Origin: Sphingomonadaceae bacterium
GTDB lineage: Bacteria > Pseudomonadota > Alphaproteobacteria > Sphingomonadales > Sphingomonadaceae
Length of the DNA stretch: 64,000 nucleotides
Direction: 5' to 3'
NCBI GenBank assembly: GCA_947476425.1
Contig: CANJQJ010000007.1
Span: 1-64,000 of the forward strand
Under the pieces are notes generated by a model. The model was not told where the DNA came from. It was given only the letters and a program-made list of their open reading frames with translations, and searched no databases. The position numbers were made by a program, and so were the translations under genes. Below are positions 16,672-45,640 of the stretch, one piece after another. The first letter of the stretch is position 1. Every line of letters begins with the position of its first letter.

Positions 16672-17994
16672 ATGCCCGATCGTACCATCCGACTTGCCGT
16701 CCTCGGCCTGTTCATCCTGTCCGTACTTGTTGGCGGATATCTTTATCTGACGGGCGGCGGCGCAAGGCTTTCGATCGCGGACGTCACTGGATCAAGGCCG
16801 ACATTGGCTGGGCCGGATCGGCGATTCGTGCCCGTCGTGAAAGTTCCCAAGGCGGTGGGCTGGACCGGCAATGCTACGCCGGTCGCCGCCACTGGGCTTA
16901 CGGTAAAGGCGTTCGCGCAAGGGCTCGATCATCCACGCTGGATGCTGGTTCTCCCAAATGGCGATGTGCTTGTTGCCGAATCCAATGGGCCACGAAGCAA
17001 GGCAAGCGGCGGGATACGCGGCTGGTTCGAACGCAAGTTCATGCAACGGGCGGGTGCCGGCGGCGTGTCGGCCGATCATATCACACTGCTGCGCGATACC
17101 AATGGCGACGGCGTTGCCGATTTCCGCTCGGTGCTGGTCGCTGGATTGAACGCACCGTTCGGCATGGCGCTGGTCGGCGACCAGCTTTACGTCGCCGATA
17201 ACGATGCGTTGCTGCGCTTTCCATTCAAACCGGGCGAGAACAGGATCGATGCCAAGCCCGAAAAGATCGTCGCCTTGCCCGCCGGTGGCCACTGGACGCG
17301 AAGCCTCGTTCCCAACGCGGACGGGACGAGGCTGTACGTGGGAGTGGGATCCGCCAGCAACATCGCCGAAGGCGGGCTGGAAGCCGAGACGAACCGTGCT
17401 GCGGTGCTCGAGGTCGATATCAAGAGCAAGGATTTCCGCGTCTATGCCACTGGCCTGCGCAATCCTGTCGGCATGGCATGGGAACCGGAAAACAAGGACT
17501 TGTGGGTCGTCGTCAATGAACGGGACGAACTCGGCTCCGATCTCGTCCCCGATTATCTGACGCTCGTCGAGTTCGGCGGAAATTACGGCTGGCCCTGGTA
17601 TTATTGGGGAGGAAACGTTGATCCTCGTGTGCCCGAGCCCGATCAGGACATCCGGCAATATATCAATCGGCCTGATTATGCGCTGGGCCCCCACGTTGCC
17701 GCGCTCGGGCTGACGTTCGCCGCCGGTGCCAAGCTCGGCCCCGCGTTCGCAAACGGCGCATTTATCGGCCTTCACGGCTCATGGAATCGCCGTCCGCTAT
17801 CGGGGTACAAGGTCATATTCGTTCCGTTCGCCAAAGGGCGCCCCAAGGGCATGCCGGTCGATGTGCTGAGGGGATTCCTTAATGCCGACGAACAAGCGCG
17901 AGGCCGACCGGTCGGCGTCGTCATCGACAGCAAAGGTGCGCTTCTCGTCGCGGACGATGTCGGCAACCGGATCTGGCGGGTGACAACCAAGTGA
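16672..17994 (+). CDS. PQQ-type sugar/sorbosone dehydrogenase-like protein
   Basis: A 440-residue protein with an N-terminal membrane anchor (about residues 6-27) and a six-bladed beta-propeller of the soluble glucose/sorbosone dehydrogenase family. Supporting blocks are LDHPRWMLVLPNGDVLVAES, a calcium-like loop DTNGDGVAD, GHWTRSLVPNADGTRLYVGV, ATGLRNPVGMAWEP, NYGWPWYYWGG and HGSWNR. It would oxidise an aldose with PQQ in the periplasm, held by the anchor; substrate is unknown. It begins 5 bases after corC and overlaps the lnt GTG by four bases, so it is embedded in a core operon where it is not normally found. Confidence 0.85.
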   Translation: MPDRTIRLAVLGLFILSVLVGGYLYLTGGGARLSIADVTGSRPTLAGPDRRFVPVVKVPKAVGWTGNATPVAATGLTVKAFAQGLDHPRWMLVLPNGDVLVAESNGPRSKASGGIRGWFERKFMQRAGAGGVSADHITLLRDTNGDGVADFRSVLVAGLNAPFGMALVGDQLYVADNDALLRFPFKPGENRIDAKPEKIVALPAGGHWTRSLVPNADGTRLYVGVGSASNIAEGGLEAETNRAAVLEVDIKSKDFRVYATGLRNPVGMAWEPENKDLWVVVNERDELGSDLVPDYLTLVEFGGNYGWPWYYWGGNVDPRVPEPDQDIRQYINRPDYALGPHVAALGLTFAAGAKLGPAFANGAFIGLHGSWNRRPLSGYKVIFVPFAKGRPKGMPVDVLRGFLNADEQARGRPVGVVIDSKGALLVADDVGNRIWRVTTK

Positions 17995-19526
17995 CGCAAT
18001 CTCGTACCCTGGCGAAGGCCGGGGATCGAAACCGGTCACGCAATTGGACCCCGGCTGTTGCCCTGGGACTGGGGATGGCCTCCGCCGCGGGATTCGCACC
18101 GCTCAACTGGTGGTTGCTGAGCCTGATCTGCCTTGCCGGGCTGATTGCCCTGATCGAACGCGCCAAGACACTGCGACGCGCGCTTGCCACTGGATGGCTG
18201 TTCGGACTGGGCCATTTCGTCATCGGGCTCAACTGGATCGCGACCGCCTTCTACTACCAGGACGCAATGCCCCACTGGCTCGGCTGGATCGCGGTGGTCC
18301 TGGTCTCGCTGTTCTTCGCCATATATCCAGCGGTGGCGACTGGACTGGCGTGGCGATGGGGGCGACGGTCGTCGCTGGTTTCACTGTGCCTCGCGCTCGC
18401 TATAGCCTGGATCGTCACGGAATGGCTCCGCGCGACATTGTTCACCGGCTTTGCCTGGAATCCGCTTGGCGTGATGCTGGTCGACATCGGCAAGCCCGCG
18501 CGGTGGATCGGTACATACGGACTTTCGGCTATTGTGATCCTGACCGCCGGGGCGATTGCCGGGCTCGGCGTCCGCAAGTGGCGCGAGGCGGCCTGGCTCG
18601 CATTGCCGCTGGCGACCTGCGCGATAATTTCGTGGGCGATACCGCCGGCGCCACCGCCCCGCCCCGACTCGATCTGGCTTCATGTCGTCCAGCCCGACAT
18701 CAATCAAAACGAGAAGTGGGATGAGGCGCTTGCCGCGCGCAACTACAAGCGGCTCGCAGGATTGACGGGCAAGCCCACGGCACATGCCCGCCTCATCCTC
18801 TGGCCCGAAGCCGCGATCCCCGACTATCTCGACGAAGAGCCCTGGGCGCGCGAGCGACTGGCAGGGCTGCTCGGCCCGCACGATCTGCTGCTGACGGGGG
18901 GCAATGATCTCGTCTACGACAAGGCGGGCAAGCTGGTCGCTGCCCACAACAGCCTGTTCGCTGTCGATTCGCAGGCGCGCGTGCTTGCCCGCTACGATAA
19001 GGCGCACCTTGTACCCTATGGCGAATATCTCCCGATGCGTCCGATATTGTCGGCACTCGGGCTGTCGCGCCTCGCACCCGGCGATTTCGATTTTCTCGCA
19101 GGCCCCGGACCACGGACGCTGATAGTGCCGGGATTCGGAAAGATCGGCATCCAGATCTGCTACGAGATGATTTTCTCCGGACAGGTGGTGGACAAGCACA
19201 ACCGCCCGGACTTCATCTTCAACCCCTCGAACGATGCCTGGTTCGGTGGATGGGGTCCCCCACAGCATCTGGCCCAGGCACGGTTGCGGGCGATCGAGGA
19301 AGGTCTTCCCATCGTCCGTTCGACTCCAACCGGGATTTCAGCGGTCGTCGATGCGGATGGCCGCATCATCGACCAGCTGGCGTGGCATCAGCCCGGCGCA
19401 ATCGACGCGAAATTGCCGGGAGCCCTGCCACCAACGCTCTTTTCGCGCTTCGGCAACGTGCTGCCCTTCCTGTTCGCGGCACTGCTCGCCCTTATCCTGA
19501 TTGCAGTCCGGCGCGGCGCGCGTTAA
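17991..19526 (+). CDS. lnt: Apolipoprotein N-acyltransferase Lnt
   Basis: A 511-residue inner-membrane enzyme that adds the third acyl chain to the N-terminal cysteine of lipoproteins. It has several N-terminal membrane helices and a periplasmic nitrilase-like domain with the catalytic triad visible as Glu in LILWPEAAIP, Lys in YDKAHLVPYGEY and Cys in GIQICYEMIF. A last helix lies near 490-508. The GTG start overlaps the preceding stop. Residues about 5-26 are encoded by a class B palindromic repeat (18003-18069); the next in-frame ATG (18075) would remove part of the first helix, so the GTG is preferred. Confidence 0.94.
   Translation: MTQSRTLAKAGDRNRSRNWTPAVALGLGMASAAGFAPLNWWLLSLICLAGLIALIERAKTLRRALATGWLFGLGHFVIGLNWIATAFYYQDAMPHWLGWIAVVLVSLFFAIYPAVATGLAWRWGRRSSLVSLCLALAIAWIVTEWLRATLFTGFAWNPLGVMLVDIGKPARWIGTYGLSAIVILTAGAIAGLGVRKWREAAWLALPLATCAIISWAIPPAPPPRPDSIWLHVVQPDINQNEKWDEALAARNYKRLAGLTGKPTAHARLILWPEAAIPDYLDEEPWARERLAGLLGPHDLLLTGGNDLVYDKAGKLVAAHNSLFAVDSQARVLARYDKAHLVPYGEYLPMRPILSALGLSRLAPGDFDFLAGPGPRTLIVPGFGKIGIQICYEMIFSGQVVDKHNRPDFIFNPSNDAWFGGWGPPQHLAQARLRAIEEGLPIVRSTPTGISAVVDADGRIIDQLAWHQPGAIDAKLPGALPPTLFSRFGNVLPFLFAALLALILIAVRRGAR
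18003..18069. repeat. Class B palindromic repeat read within lnt
   Basis: Left arm TACCCTGGCGAAGGCCGGGG and right arm GGACCCCGGCTGTTGCCCTG match, with some decay, the intergenic class B elements at 20804-20870 and 31534-31601. Here the copy lies inside the 5' end of the lnt reading frame. Confidence 0.6.
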
Positions 19527-19531
19527 GGGCG

Positions 19532-19551
19532 ACATAAGGAAAGCTTTATAT
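19532..19551. promoter_or_regulatory. Putative SahR-type operator upstream of metK
   Basis: ACATAAGGAAAGCTTTATAT matches 17 of 20 positions of the perfect palindrome at 45621-45640 that precedes the ArsR-methyltransferase-metF-metH operon. It lies 38 bases before the metK start and 6 bases after the lnt stop. Co-regulation by the same ArsR-type protein is inferred from the match. Confidence 0.65.
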
Positions 19552-19589: not shown

Positions 19590-20795
19590 ATGCGCAGCAA
19601 TTATCTCTTCACCTCGGAAAGCGTCTCCGAAGGCCATCCCGACAAGGTCGCCGACCAGATTTCGGATGCGATCGTGGACCTCTTCCTGTCGAAGGATCCG
19701 GAAGCGCGAATCGCTTGCGAAACGCTGACCACTACCCAGCTGGTGGTGCTGGCGGGCGAAATCCGCTGCAAAGGCGTCTATGAGGATGGCGCTTGGGCGC
19801 CGGGCGCGCTTGACGAGATCGAGCAAGCGGTCCGAGCCACGGTGAAGCGGATCGGATATGAGCAGGACGGTTTCCACTGGGAGACCTTCAAGTTCCAGAA
19901 CCATCTTCACGGCCAATCGGCGCATATCGCGCAGGGCGTGGATGCCAGCGGCAACAAGGATGAAGGCGCAGGCGACCAGGGCATCATGTTCGGTTTTGCT
20001 TGTGACGAGACCCCCGACCTGATGCCGGCTACACTCTATTACAGCCACAAGATCCTCGAACGCATGGCCGCCGACCGTCATTCGGGCGCTGCACCGTTCC
20101 TCGAACCCGATGCCAAGAGCCAGGTTACGCTCCGCTTCGAGAATGGCGTGCCCGCTGCCGCCACCGCGATCGTCGTCTCGACCCAGCACGCCAAGGGCTA
20201 TGATGAAGGCGCCGGGGAAGCTGAACTGAAGGCCTATGTGAAGAAAGTCATTGCCGAGATCCTGCCCGCAAAGCTGCTTTCCGAGGCAACCGAATATCAC
20301 ATCAACCCGACCGGCAGTTTCGAGATTGGCGGCCCCGACGGCGACGCCGGGCTGACCGGGCGCAAGATCATCGTCGACACCTACGGCGGTGCAGCCCCAC
20401 ACGGCGGCGGCGCCTTTTCCGGCAAGGATCCGACGAAGGTCGATCGCTCGGCAGCTTATATCACCCGATATCTCGCCAAGAATATCGTCGCGGCGGGCCT
20501 CGCCAAGCGTTGCACCATCCAACTCGCCTACGCGATCGGCGTGTCGAAGCCGCTGTCGCTCTATGTCAACACGCACGGCACGGGCACTGTCGATGACGCC
20601 CGGATCGAGGATGCGATCACGCGGATGGAATCGCTCGGCGGCCTGACGCCGCGCGGCATTCGGACACATCTCGGCCTCAACAAGCCGATCTACCAGAAGA
20701 CCGCGGCTTATGGCCATTTCGGCCGCAAGCCCGAAGGCGACTTCTTCCCGTGGGAGAAGACCGATCTGGCTGATGCGCTGAAGGCTGCGTTGTAA
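19590..20795 (+). CDS. metK: S-adenosylmethionine synthetase
   Basis: A 401-residue enzyme making SAM from ATP and methionine. Signature blocks: [32 protein letters not shown] and [19 protein letters not shown] (phosphate and metal binding). The N-terminus [12 protein letters not shown] fits homologues. The 63-base leader carries a SahR-like operator rather than a recognisable SAM riboswitch. The gene is separated from lnt and from the next gene by its own promoter region and a repeat, so it is probably monocistronic. Confidence 0.97.
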
Positions 20796-37350: not shown

Positions 37351-37696
37351 GGGGGGCTTCTGTTGCCCGGTGCCCCCCGTACCGCTGGAATCCGCTTCTG
37401 TTGCCCGGTGCGGCCCGGACCGCGCTTAAGCCTTGTAACCTAGTTCCCGTGAGGGCGTTCAGTTACGCAGCAATCGCGAGCGCCTCATTATCGTTGGCAC
37501 TTGTAGGTTTTGAACGGTTTTGCGGCGCATTCAGGCCGGGCAAAAATATCGTCTTTTAACACACGTCGATCCTGCTTCGGCCCCGTCAGAAGGCCCTGCT
37601 TTCACAAGGCTTTGTGGTGGAGCCGCCGGGTACTGCCCCCGGGTCCGTTGAGTCTATTACACGACATCATTTATCACCATAGCCGGCAAGCCGGCA
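37351..37696 (-). ncRNA. ssrA: Transfer-messenger RNA, circularly permuted two-piece form
   Basis: Read on the minus strand. The acceptor piece comes first (about 37696-37615), ending CGGCTCC-ACCA. A 30-base intervening segment (37614-37585) would be removed. The coding piece begins at 37584 with GGGGCCG, which pairs with the acceptor CGGCTCC. The tag frame at 37498-37463 encodes ANDNEALAIAA and a TAA stop. Pseudoknot-like segments follow to about 37351, closed by GGGGGGC...GCCCCCC. The permuted layout is the alphaproteobacterial type. tmRNA with SmpB rescues stalled ribosomes and marks the peptide for ClpXP. Piece ends are estimates. Confidence 0.94.
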
Positions 37697-37702
37697 GGGA
37701 GG

Positions 37703-37731
37703 CATATAGGTGCGACCATCCGCTTTGTCAT
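37703..37731 (-). promoter_or_regulatory. ssrA promoter
   Basis: On the minus strand ATGACA (37731-37726) and TATATG (37708-37703) are separated by 17 bases, giving a start near 37696, where the acceptor piece begins. The -35 lies in a decayed class A repeat arm. Confidence 0.6.
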
Positions 37732-37770
37732 CCCCGCGATGGAACGCGCGGGAATCCGCAAGCGTAGTGG

Positions 37771-39956: not shown

Positions 39957-42545
<2,589 letters not shown>

Positions 42546-42644: not shown

Positions 42645-43706
42645 CTATGCAGCAATCGTCATCGGATCGAGTCCCGAAAGCCGCGTTGCCACCAGCGGGT
42701 GCGGGATCGCCCGAGGGGGTTTGCCCGCAACCGCCGCTGCCATAGCCGCGATATGTGCCGGGGTCGTGCCGCAGCAGCCGCCGACGACGTTGATCAGCCG
42801 CTCGTCCGCCCAATCCTCGATCTTGTTGCCGGTCTCGTCGGGCTGTTCGTCATAAGCGCCGAGATCGTTCGGCAATCCTGCATTCGGGTAGATCATCACC
42901 AGCGCATCGGCGATCCGCGAGATCGTCTGCACATAGGGGCGAAGCTGATCCGCCCCGAAGGCGCAGTTGAGCCCGATCGTCAGCGGATGCGAATGGCGCA
43001 CACTGTACCAGAAAGCCTCTACGCTGTGCCCGGACAAGTTGCGCCCCGACATATCGGTGATCGTCATCGACAACATGATCGGGATCTCGATCCCGCGCCG
43101 ATCGGCCTCATCGAACACCGCCATGATCGCTGCCTTCGCGTTTAGCGTGTCGAACACAGTCTCGATCAGGATGAAATCGCAACCGCCCTCCATGAGCGCG
43201 CCGATCTGGTCCGCATAAACGTCGCGCATCGTATCGAATTCGACAGCGCGATAGCCCGGATCATTAACGTCGGGCGACAGCGACAGCGTCTTGTTGGTCG
43301 GTCCGATCGCGCCAGCCACGAAGCGAGGACGTCCATCCCTGTCCTGATATTCGTCAGCGCACTTCCGCGCGATATGTGCCGACGCAAGGTTGATCTCGCG
43401 AACGAGATGCTCAGCGCCATAATCGCCCTGGCTGATCGTGTTGGCGTTGAAGGTGTTTGTCGAGACGATGTCGGACCCCGCATCGAGATAGGCACGCGTT
43501 ATCGCCTCGATGACGTCAGGCCGCGTGATCGCGAGCATGTCGTTATTGCCCTTCTGATCATGGCTGAGATCGAGCGTGCCACGATAATCCGCCTCCTCGA
43601 GCTTGTAGCTCTGGATCATCGTCCCGAACGCGCCATCGGTAAGCAGGATGCGCTTGGCCGCCTCGATGCGAAACAGCGCGGCGGCCGTGGAGGATTTCAA
43701 TGTCAT
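42645..43706 (-). CDS. metH: Methionine synthase homocysteine-binding subunit (MetH N-terminal part)
   Basis: A 353-residue homocysteine S-methyltransferase barrel. LLTDGAFGTMIQ at the start, and the zinc cysteines are in GLNCAFG and GGCCGTTP. It binds and activates homocysteine for methylation by the B12 part encoded next. The ATG at 43706 overlaps the metF stop by four bases. Alphaproteobacteria often carry MetH in two polypeptides like this. Confidence 0.95.
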   Translation of the reverse strand: MTLKSSTAAALFRIEAAKRILLTDGAFGTMIQSYKLEEADYRGTLDLSHDQKGNNDMLAITRPDVIEAITRAYLDAGSDIVSTNTFNANTISQGDYGAEHLVREINLASAHIARKCADEYQDRDGRPRFVAGAIGPTNKTLSLSPDVNDPGYRAVEFDTMRDVYADQIGALMEGGCDFILIETVFDTLNAKAAIMAVFDEADRRGIEIPIMLSMTITDMSGRNLSGHSVEAFWYSVRHSHPLTIGLNCAFGADQLRPYVQTISRIADALVMIYPNAGLPNDLGAYDEQPDETGNKIEDWADERLINVVGGCCGTTPAHIAAMAAAVAGKPPRAIPHPLVATRLSGLDPMTIAA

Positions 43707-44650
43707 GATGCGATACCCTTGATCCGTCGATCGTCCTTCGCGCGATGCCCCAGCAGGTGGCAGATCGCATAAGCGAGTTCGGCGCGATTGAGCGTGTAGA
43801 AGTGGAAATGGCGCACGCCGCCCGCGTAGAGCCGGCGGCACATCTCGGCCGCGATCGTTGCCGCGACGAGCTGGCGCGCGCCGGGCATGTCGTCGAGGCC
43901 TTCGAACAGCCGGTCCATCCAGGCCGGGATCGCAGCCCCGCACGCAGCCGCGAACTTGCGCGTCTGCGCGACGTTCGAGACCGGCAGGATTCCCGGAACG
44001 ATCTCAGCATCGATGCCAGCCGCGGCCACCTTGTCGCGGAAACGGAAAAAGGTTTCGGGTGCGAAGAAGAACTGCGTGATCGCACGCGACGCCCCCGCAT
44101 CGAGCTTCGCCTTAAGATTGTCGAGATCAGCCTGCGGGCTCGCCGAATCGGGATGGCATTCTGGATAGGCCGCGATCGATATCTCAAACGGCGCGATCTT
44201 GTGGAGCCCGGCGACAAGCGCAGCGGCATTGGCATAGCCTTGCGGATGCGGCTCGAACTTCGCGCCCAGCACTGGCGGATCGCCGCGCAGCGCGACGATA
44301 TGCCGAACCCCTGCCGCCCAATATTCGCGAGCGATGGCGTCGATTTCATCGCGCGTGGCATCGACGCAGGTGAGGTGAGCGGCCGCCGGCATCGTCGTTT
44401 CCCGTACGATACGTTCAACGGTCGCATGGGTCCGCTCGCGGGTCGAGCCGCCGGCACCATAGGTGACTGACACGAACCGCGGAGCAAGCGGCGCCAATGA
44501 CTCGATCGCCGACCACAGGTTCTCTTCCATCTTCGCCGTCTTGGGCGGGAAGAATTCGAACGAAACCGCCGCGTCGCCCGCCAGATCGGCGAACAGCGGC
44601 GCATCATTCGCGCGGCGCGCTTCCTCGACTGGGTTCAGATCGGACGTCAT
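43703..44650 (-). CDS. metF: 5,10-methylenetetrahydrofolate reductase
   Basis: A 315-residue FAD enzyme that makes 5-methyl-THF for MetH. VSFEFFPPKTAKMEENLW (catalytic Glu region), SVTYGAGGSTRERTH, HLTCVDATRDEI, ALRGDPP and ITQFFFAPETFFRF are all typical. Start overlaps the stop of the ArsR-methyltransferase gene (ATGA), so the four genes form one tightly coupled operon. Confidence 0.96.
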   Translation of the reverse strand: MTSDLNPVEEARRANDAPLFADLAGDAAVSFEFFPPKTAKMEENLWSAIESLAPLAPRFVSVTYGAGGSTRERTHATVERIVRETTMPAAAHLTCVDATRDEIDAIAREYWAAGVRHIVALRGDPPVLGAKFEPHPQGYANAAALVAGLHKIAPFEISIAAYPECHPDSASPQADLDNLKAKLDAGASRAITQFFFAPETFFRFRDKVAAAGIDAEIVPGILPVSNVAQTRKFAAACGAAIPAWMDRLFEGLDDMPGARQLVAATIAAEMCRRLYAGGVRHFHFYTLNRAELAYAICHLLGHRAKDDRRIKGIAS

Positions 44651-45609
44651 GCTGCAGCCTCCTGTTGGCCAGATTGCCCGGGGCGATGGCCGAGCCAGAG
44701 CTTGACTGTCAATTCACCCCCTTTGAGTTGCTGGTTCTTCGCCGCTTCCAATCCGGCGGCGGCAAACCAGCCCTGAATCTGTTCATCCGCAAATCCCAGC
44801 CGGGCGTGCGCGTCCCGCGTGCGCAACTCCTCGCGCTCATGCGGGGCAAAATCGACGATCAGCAGCCGCCCTCCGGGAGCCAGCAGGCGCGCGGCCTCGC
44901 TGATCGCCGCGGCGGGTTGCTGGGCATAGTGGAGCACCTGATGGAGAATGACTGTATCGGCGCCCCGGCTCGCCAGCGGCAGCGCGTAGAGATCGCCCTG
45001 GCGAAGCTCGACCCGCTCGAGGCCGGCCGCCGCCAACTTGGAACGCGCAAGGCGCAACATTTCAGGGCTGCGGTCGATTCCGATCGAACGTGTCGCCCTC
45101 GATGCCAGCAATTCGAGCATCCGCCCGGTCCCGGTCCCGAGATCGACGAGCAGCCCGACCGGCTCATTGTCCAGCGCCTCGACAATCGCAGCTTCTACTG
45201 CGCTTTCCGGCACGTGAAGCGAGCGTATTGCATCCCAATCAGCGGCATGCGCATCGAAATAGGCTTCCGCCGCCATCTGGCGATCCGCGCGCACCGCGGC
45301 GAGACGAGCGATATCGGCAACGGTCCAGTGATCGCCGCCGCTCTCCTCGGTCCATGTATCGATCGCTTCGAGCACTGGCAGCGTGCGCGCCTCCATCCCG
45401 AGACCGAGGAATACCCAGCTCCCTTCCTTGCGGCGTCGCGCAAGACCGGCATCGGCCAGGATCTTGACGTGGCGCGACACACGCGGCTGGCTTTGGCCGA
45501 GCACTTGCGCCAGTTCACCGACCGACAACTCCATCGCCCGGAGCAAGCCCAGGATGCGAAGTCGCGTCGGATCGGCAAGTGCGCGGAAGATCGAGAGCGC
45601 CAGTTTCAT
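44647..45609 (-). CDS. ArsR-type regulator fused to a SAM-dependent methyltransferase (SahR-like)
   Basis: A 320-residue fusion. The N-terminal ArsR winged helix (IFRALADPTRLRILGLL; VGELAQVLGQSQPRVSRHVKIL, core GQSQPRVSRH) is followed by a class I methyltransferase domain (LLVDLGTGTGRMLELL; HQVLHYAQQPAAAI; LAPGGRLLIVDF). No ArsR metal-binding Cys are present. Such fusions sit with metF/metH in alphaproteobacteria and correspond to the SahR type of SAM-cycle regulator, whose ligand is S-adenosylhomocysteine. The methyltransferase fold probably serves as SAM/SAH sensor. First gene of the operon; a perfect palindrome lies 12 bases upstream. Confidence 0.88.
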   Translation of the reverse strand: MKLALSIFRALADPTRLRILGLLRAMELSVGELAQVLGQSQPRVSRHVKILADAGLARRRKEGSWVFLGLGMEARTLPVLEAIDTWTEESGGDHWTVADIARLAAVRADRQMAAEAYFDAHAADWDAIRSLHVPESAVEAAIVEALDNEPVGLLVDLGTGTGRMLELLASRATRSIGIDRSPEMLRLARSKLAAAGLERVELRQGDLYALPLASRGADTVILHQVLHYAQQPAAAISEAARLLAPGGRLLIVDFAPHEREELRTRDAHARLGFADEQIQGWFAAAGLEAAKNQQLKGGELTVKLWLGHRPGQSGQQEAAA

Positions 45610-45620
45610 GATCGGGTCGC

Positions 45621-45640
45621 ATATAAAGAAATCTTTATAT
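45621..45640. promoter_or_regulatory. Operator palindrome for the met operon (SahR-like)
   Basis: ATATAAAGAAATCTTTATAT is a perfect 9+9 inverted repeat with a 2-base centre, in the mlaA/arsR divergent gap, 12 bases from the regulator start. AT-rich in a GC-rich genome and repeated upstream of metK, so it is read as the binding site of the ArsR-methyltransferase protein. Confidence 0.8.

Follow-up and report, generated by a model that had tools for sequence, protein, structure and literature searches.

A predicted SahR regulon with operators before sahR-metF-metH, metK and ahcY in a Sphingomonadaceae genome

Background

The SahR regulon was reportedly first described by Novichkov et al. in 2014. 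In the account of Leyn et al. (2014, PMC4239095), SahR is an SAH-responsive regulator of the ArsR family with a 20-bp palindromic operator, and its core regulon, comprising sahR, ahcY, metH, metH2, metF and metK, was found in 7/7 Sphingomonadales. In Ensifer aridi, the motif precedes sahR, ahcY, metH, bhmT and metK, and the activity of the sahR promoter peaks in a sahR deletion, consistent with autorepression (PMC8877191). A distant homologue of SahR, the SamR protein of the Xanthomonadales, adjoins metH genes and has a 24-bp motif and a regulon that includes metK and metF and lacks ahcY. Leyn et al. left the effector of SamR open and favoured SAM, an inference drawn from the lack of SAM-cycle genes other than metK in that regulon (PMC4239095).

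Here we describe the corresponding system in a Sphingomonadaceae bacterium, starting from a 64-kb window (the whole stretch of 64,000 nucleotides that was analysed) and extending to the 2,814,686-base assembly. The regulator family, the 20-bp palindromic operator and the core targets of the Sphingomonadales regulon are all matched, and no essential difference was seen in a comparison that took the published motif by its description and not letter by letter. The sites before sahR, ahcY, metH and metK in E. aridi likewise have their counterparts here, whereas no site surfaced for bhmT, an additional target in that species. SamR, by contrast, differs in both motif length and membership, the conserved word here being 20 bp long and one of its occurrences preceding ahcY. 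Since SahR has been published for 7/7 Sphingomonadales with the same members, we very probably see the already described regulon in one more genome. Beyond this confirmation, the regulon proved readable from raw sequence by way of one shared word, and the analysis adds an apparent parallel loss of regulator and sites in some genomes and, across a family, the positions of the operators relative to the likely promoters of sahR and ahcY.

Results

The gene of the likely regulator is followed by metF and a two-part metH

The sahR gene (44647-45609, reverse strand) encodes a protein that joins a winged helix of the ArsR family to a methyltransferase-like domain of the SAM-dependent class I type (NF033788 HTH_metalloreg, PF01022 and PF08241); its placement in the ArsR family follows from the NF033788 score, 83.1 bits against a cut-off of 55, together with PF01022. 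Overlapping its stop codon is metF (43703-44650, reverse strand), encoding methylenetetrahydrofolate reductase, which was recognized by reading its translation directly and by comparison with the frames of relatives; frames 57-83% identical to it come after sahR in nearly all loci of other species. The metH gene follows in two parts, both on the reverse strand. The first (42645-43712, likely ATG at 43712) encodes the homocysteine S-methyltransferase domain (PF02574; it covers residues 7-355 of PRK09490, a model of methionine synthase), while the second (39957-42545) encodes the pterin-binding, B12-binding and activation domains (TIGR02082 above its cut-off, residues 339-1182 of the model).

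Full-length orthologues of SahR are present in most of 60 relatives. Named relatives of the protein belong mostly to Sphingomonas and allied genera, and homologues extend to Zymomonas, Acidocella and Gluconacetobacter. In 30 relatives, the SAM-binding motif D-x-G-T-G-T-G-R and the helix-turn-helix recognition region QSQPRvSrH rank with the best-conserved parts of the protein, and methyltransferase motif I is intact in the SahR of the window (DLGTGTGR). A sequence search against solved structures returned ArsR and methyltransferase domains as separate chains, none of them named as an ArsR-methyltransferase fusion regulator.

The SahR proteins of Acetobacteraceae (for example Acidocella; loci L140, L142, L147, L167, L174 and L195) are 70-73% identical to that of the window, whereas many genomes of the family to which the window itself belongs have a SahR only 50-60% identical to it and thus farther from it than that of Acidocella. 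The Acidocella-type loci keep the operator and metF; an adjacent metH was not found in them. Horizontal exchange is a possible explanation for this closeness.

The operator words in the window and in the genome

The predicted operator of the sahR-metF-metH operon (45621-45640, reverse strand) was located by the 20-mer scan and by a TTGAC-like hexamer that keeps a near-fixed offset from it in relatives. A preliminary description of this DNA had called it a perfect palindrome. The word in fact consists of two perfect 9-bp arms flanking a non-palindromic AA (9/10 dyads). It had also been assigned, with the metK word, to the leader of a SAM-cycle gene, which holds for metK; the site at 45621 lies in the leader of sahR, the first gene of the operon, and fronts the regulator gene and not metF directly.

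The predicted operator of metK, ACATAAGGAAAGCTTTATAT (19532-19551, forward strand), is identical to the sahR word at 17/20 positions and differs at 3/20. It occupies the space between lnt, encoding apolipoprotein N-acyltransferase (17991-19526, forward strand; TIGR00546 above its cut-off), and metK, encoding methionine adenosyltransferase (19590-20795, forward strand; TIGR01034, 472.8 bits with the cut-off at 309.4), and lies 5 nt past the lnt stop codon and 38 nt ahead of the metK ATG at 19590. The word is AT-rich in a window of 62.5% GC and is palindromic at just 6/10 dyads. At up to three mismatches, these two sites are the sole matches in the 64-kb window, and shuffled sequences lead one to expect none. 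In several relatives (metK leaders L104 of genome G003, L106 of G020 and L099 of G017), the left arm of the operator overlaps the end of lnt and supplies its stop codon (TAA).

At up to 3/20 mismatches, the 20-mer occurs at three places in the assembly, and the reversed control pattern at none. The three sites precede sahR, metK and ahcY, each in front of a SAM-cycle operon. The third lies outside the window on contig 23, 70 nt upstream of the GTG start codon of ahcY, the gene for S-adenosylhomocysteine hydrolase, which was identified from its translation and from counterparts 74-90% identical in relatives. When only the 16 informative positions were considered, five places in the whole genome matched with up to three mismatches, compared with one for the control; the two additional matches, each with 3/16 mismatches and lying near topA and near a transposase gene, were counted as background. 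Sites below the top three are not credible, as a search at up to 2/12 core mismatches returned 19 places, fewer than the 35 that the control gave. A matrix trained solely on sahR leaders of other species, and applied to 103 kb, gave 40.9 bits to the site before sahR, 36.0 to that before ahcY and 25.7 to that before metK, with the next best match at 13.4. The best operator of the three is thus that in the regulator's own leader and the weakest is that of metK; the metK and ahcY operators each depart from the family consensus at 2/16 positions. Because the ahcY site was found and the extra weak matches were taken as background, the credible sites in this regulon number three, and not two as first proposed. 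The check named at that time, a genome scan for a match before ahcY, was positive.

Conservation of the sites across the family

In a comparison of about 30 family genomes for each of sahR, metK and ahcY, a site with 0-4/16 mismatches precedes most copies of the three genes. Among 676 control segments matched in length, none came within 4 mismatches, the best having 5/16. In sahR leaders of other species, a site at up to 3/16 mismatches was found in 75 of the 78 that could be read, with metF the next gene in nearly all. The gap between lnt and metK is occupied by this 20-bp word in most SahR-bearing relatives, but by unrelated sequence in three genomes without SahR (G008, G014 and G026). Together with the 17/20 match and the genome scan, this conservation upholds the initial proposal that metK and the metF-metH operon share an operator.

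In some genomes, regulator and sites appear to have been lost together. The three genomes just named, which are 99-100% complete, are without both a SahR orthologue and a site at metK and ahcY, while G017, also lacking SahR, has a metK site with 3/16 mismatches and an ahcY site with 5/16 that look like decayed remnants. There are exceptions: G013 and G033 possess SahR yet have no site at metK or ahcY, and G025, a draft assembly of 380 contigs, has the sites while SahR was not found in it. The association between presence of the regulator and presence of sites is modest, with a Fisher p of 0.011-0.068 depending on threshold and gene and uncorrected for relatedness.

A few loci show other arrangements. 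In L021 (genome G035), L139 and L146, a sahR about 76% identical to that of the window has no leader site; metF-metH is not found near sahR in L139 and L146, and G035 keeps its metK and ahcY sites. In these loci, sahR appears to have become detached from the rest of its operon. In L042 (G031), the SahR match contains an in-frame TGA and the sites at sahR (3/16) and ahcY (6/16) are degraded, so that this regulon is possibly being lost.

Position of the operators relative to likely promoters

Upstream of sahR, 24 of 28 genomes have a TTGAC-like -35 hexamer that begins 5-9 nt ahead of the operator. In the window, the -35-like TTGACA (45648-45643) and the -10-like TATATG (45625-45620) are separated by a 17-nt spacer, and the operator occupies this spacer and covers the -10-like box. 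A consensus promoter scanner that accepts only -10 boxes ending in T reported no promoter at sahR. At ahcY the arrangement is different: TTGC directly follows the operator in 18 of 22 genomes, and a TA-rich -10-like hexamer, starting with TA in most, lies 17 nt past the TTGC hexamer, so that the operator abuts a -35-like box. The geometry at both genes fits occlusion of RNA polymerase. Around the metK operator no sigma-70-like promoter pair was found, and a TTGAC-like hexamer just before the operator was seen in none of 23 genomes.

Discussion

The domain matches, the operator in its own leader and the published SahR all make it likely that the regulator is the ArsR-methyltransferase protein, as had been suggested from the window alone. 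We infer that SahR acts as a repressor at three 20-bp operators, those of sahR-metF-metH, metK and ahcY. When bound, it would block RNA polymerase, covering the -10 box at sahR and abutting the -35 box at ahcY; at metK the operator lies in the short gap downstream of lnt. As SAH builds up, it would probably bind the methyltransferase-like domain and cause SahR to leave the DNA, upon which SAH removal (AhcY), remethylation (MetF and MetH) and SAM synthesis (MetK) would rise jointly. Of this scheme, the sequences themselves show the sites and how they are conserved, the regulator gene and the promoter-like geometry. By analogy with the described homologues, SahR would bind DNA and repress, with SAH as its effector and the fused domain as the place where SAH binds. 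We assign the SahR/SAH repressor explanation as a whole, at metK, ahcY and sahR, a probability of roughly 0.9.

As the weakest of the three sites, and one that includes a -10-like TTATAT, the metK word could be a chance AT-rich resemblance or a mere promoter element. We regard this as very improbable, given that the word recurs between lnt and metK in SahR-bearing relatives and gives way to unrelated sequence in the three SahR-less genomes, and that the control segments offer nothing comparable; both the scan of the whole genome and the comparison within the family led us to reject chance resemblance, and the metK word is in all likelihood a binding site for SahR. Still less plausible, to the point of being negligible, is control of these genes by a leader riboswitch for SAM or SAH, with the DNA word being incidental. 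Riboswitches do exert such control in other Proteobacteria, as with SAM-SAH at metK in the Rhodobacterales (PMC4239095). With Rfam covariance models at gathering thresholds, however, neither the window nor the leaders of metK and ahcY gave a riboswitch match, and nor did the metK and ahcY leaders of family genomes without SahR or its sites; scans of the entire genome for SAM_alpha, SAM-SAH and SAH returned nothing either, and carry little weight as they were run without a positive control. With the leaders of this genome and of its SahR-less or site-less relatives all empty, no earlier riboswitch state is visible, and the suggestion that the regulator replaced a SAM riboswitch finds no support.

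A rather more serious competitor, although still an unlikely one, retains the same operators and regulator and takes the signal to be SAM or the SAM/SAH ratio, with SAM as co-repressor, as has been proposed for SamR. A methyltransferase fold with an intact motif I could in principle bind either SAM or SAH, and for SamR, whose effector they left open, Leyn et al. preferred SAM (PMC4239095). That preference rested on missing SAM-cycle genes, which is not the situation here, and the described SahR responds to SAH (PMC4239095). Because ahcY is a target, SAH is the likelier signal. The 'SAM regulon' of the preliminary description thus stands as a regulon of the SAM cycle and not as one that senses SAM. 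It is also conceivable, although we consider it slightly more doubtful again, that the SahR domain senses the SAM/SAH ratio or is still catalytic, in which case one protein would be both methylation-index sensor and repressor, acting at three promoters with differing operator geometry.

Apart from the regulon, the window contains a two-piece permuted tmRNA gene of the alphaproteobacterial type (37387-37735, reverse strand).
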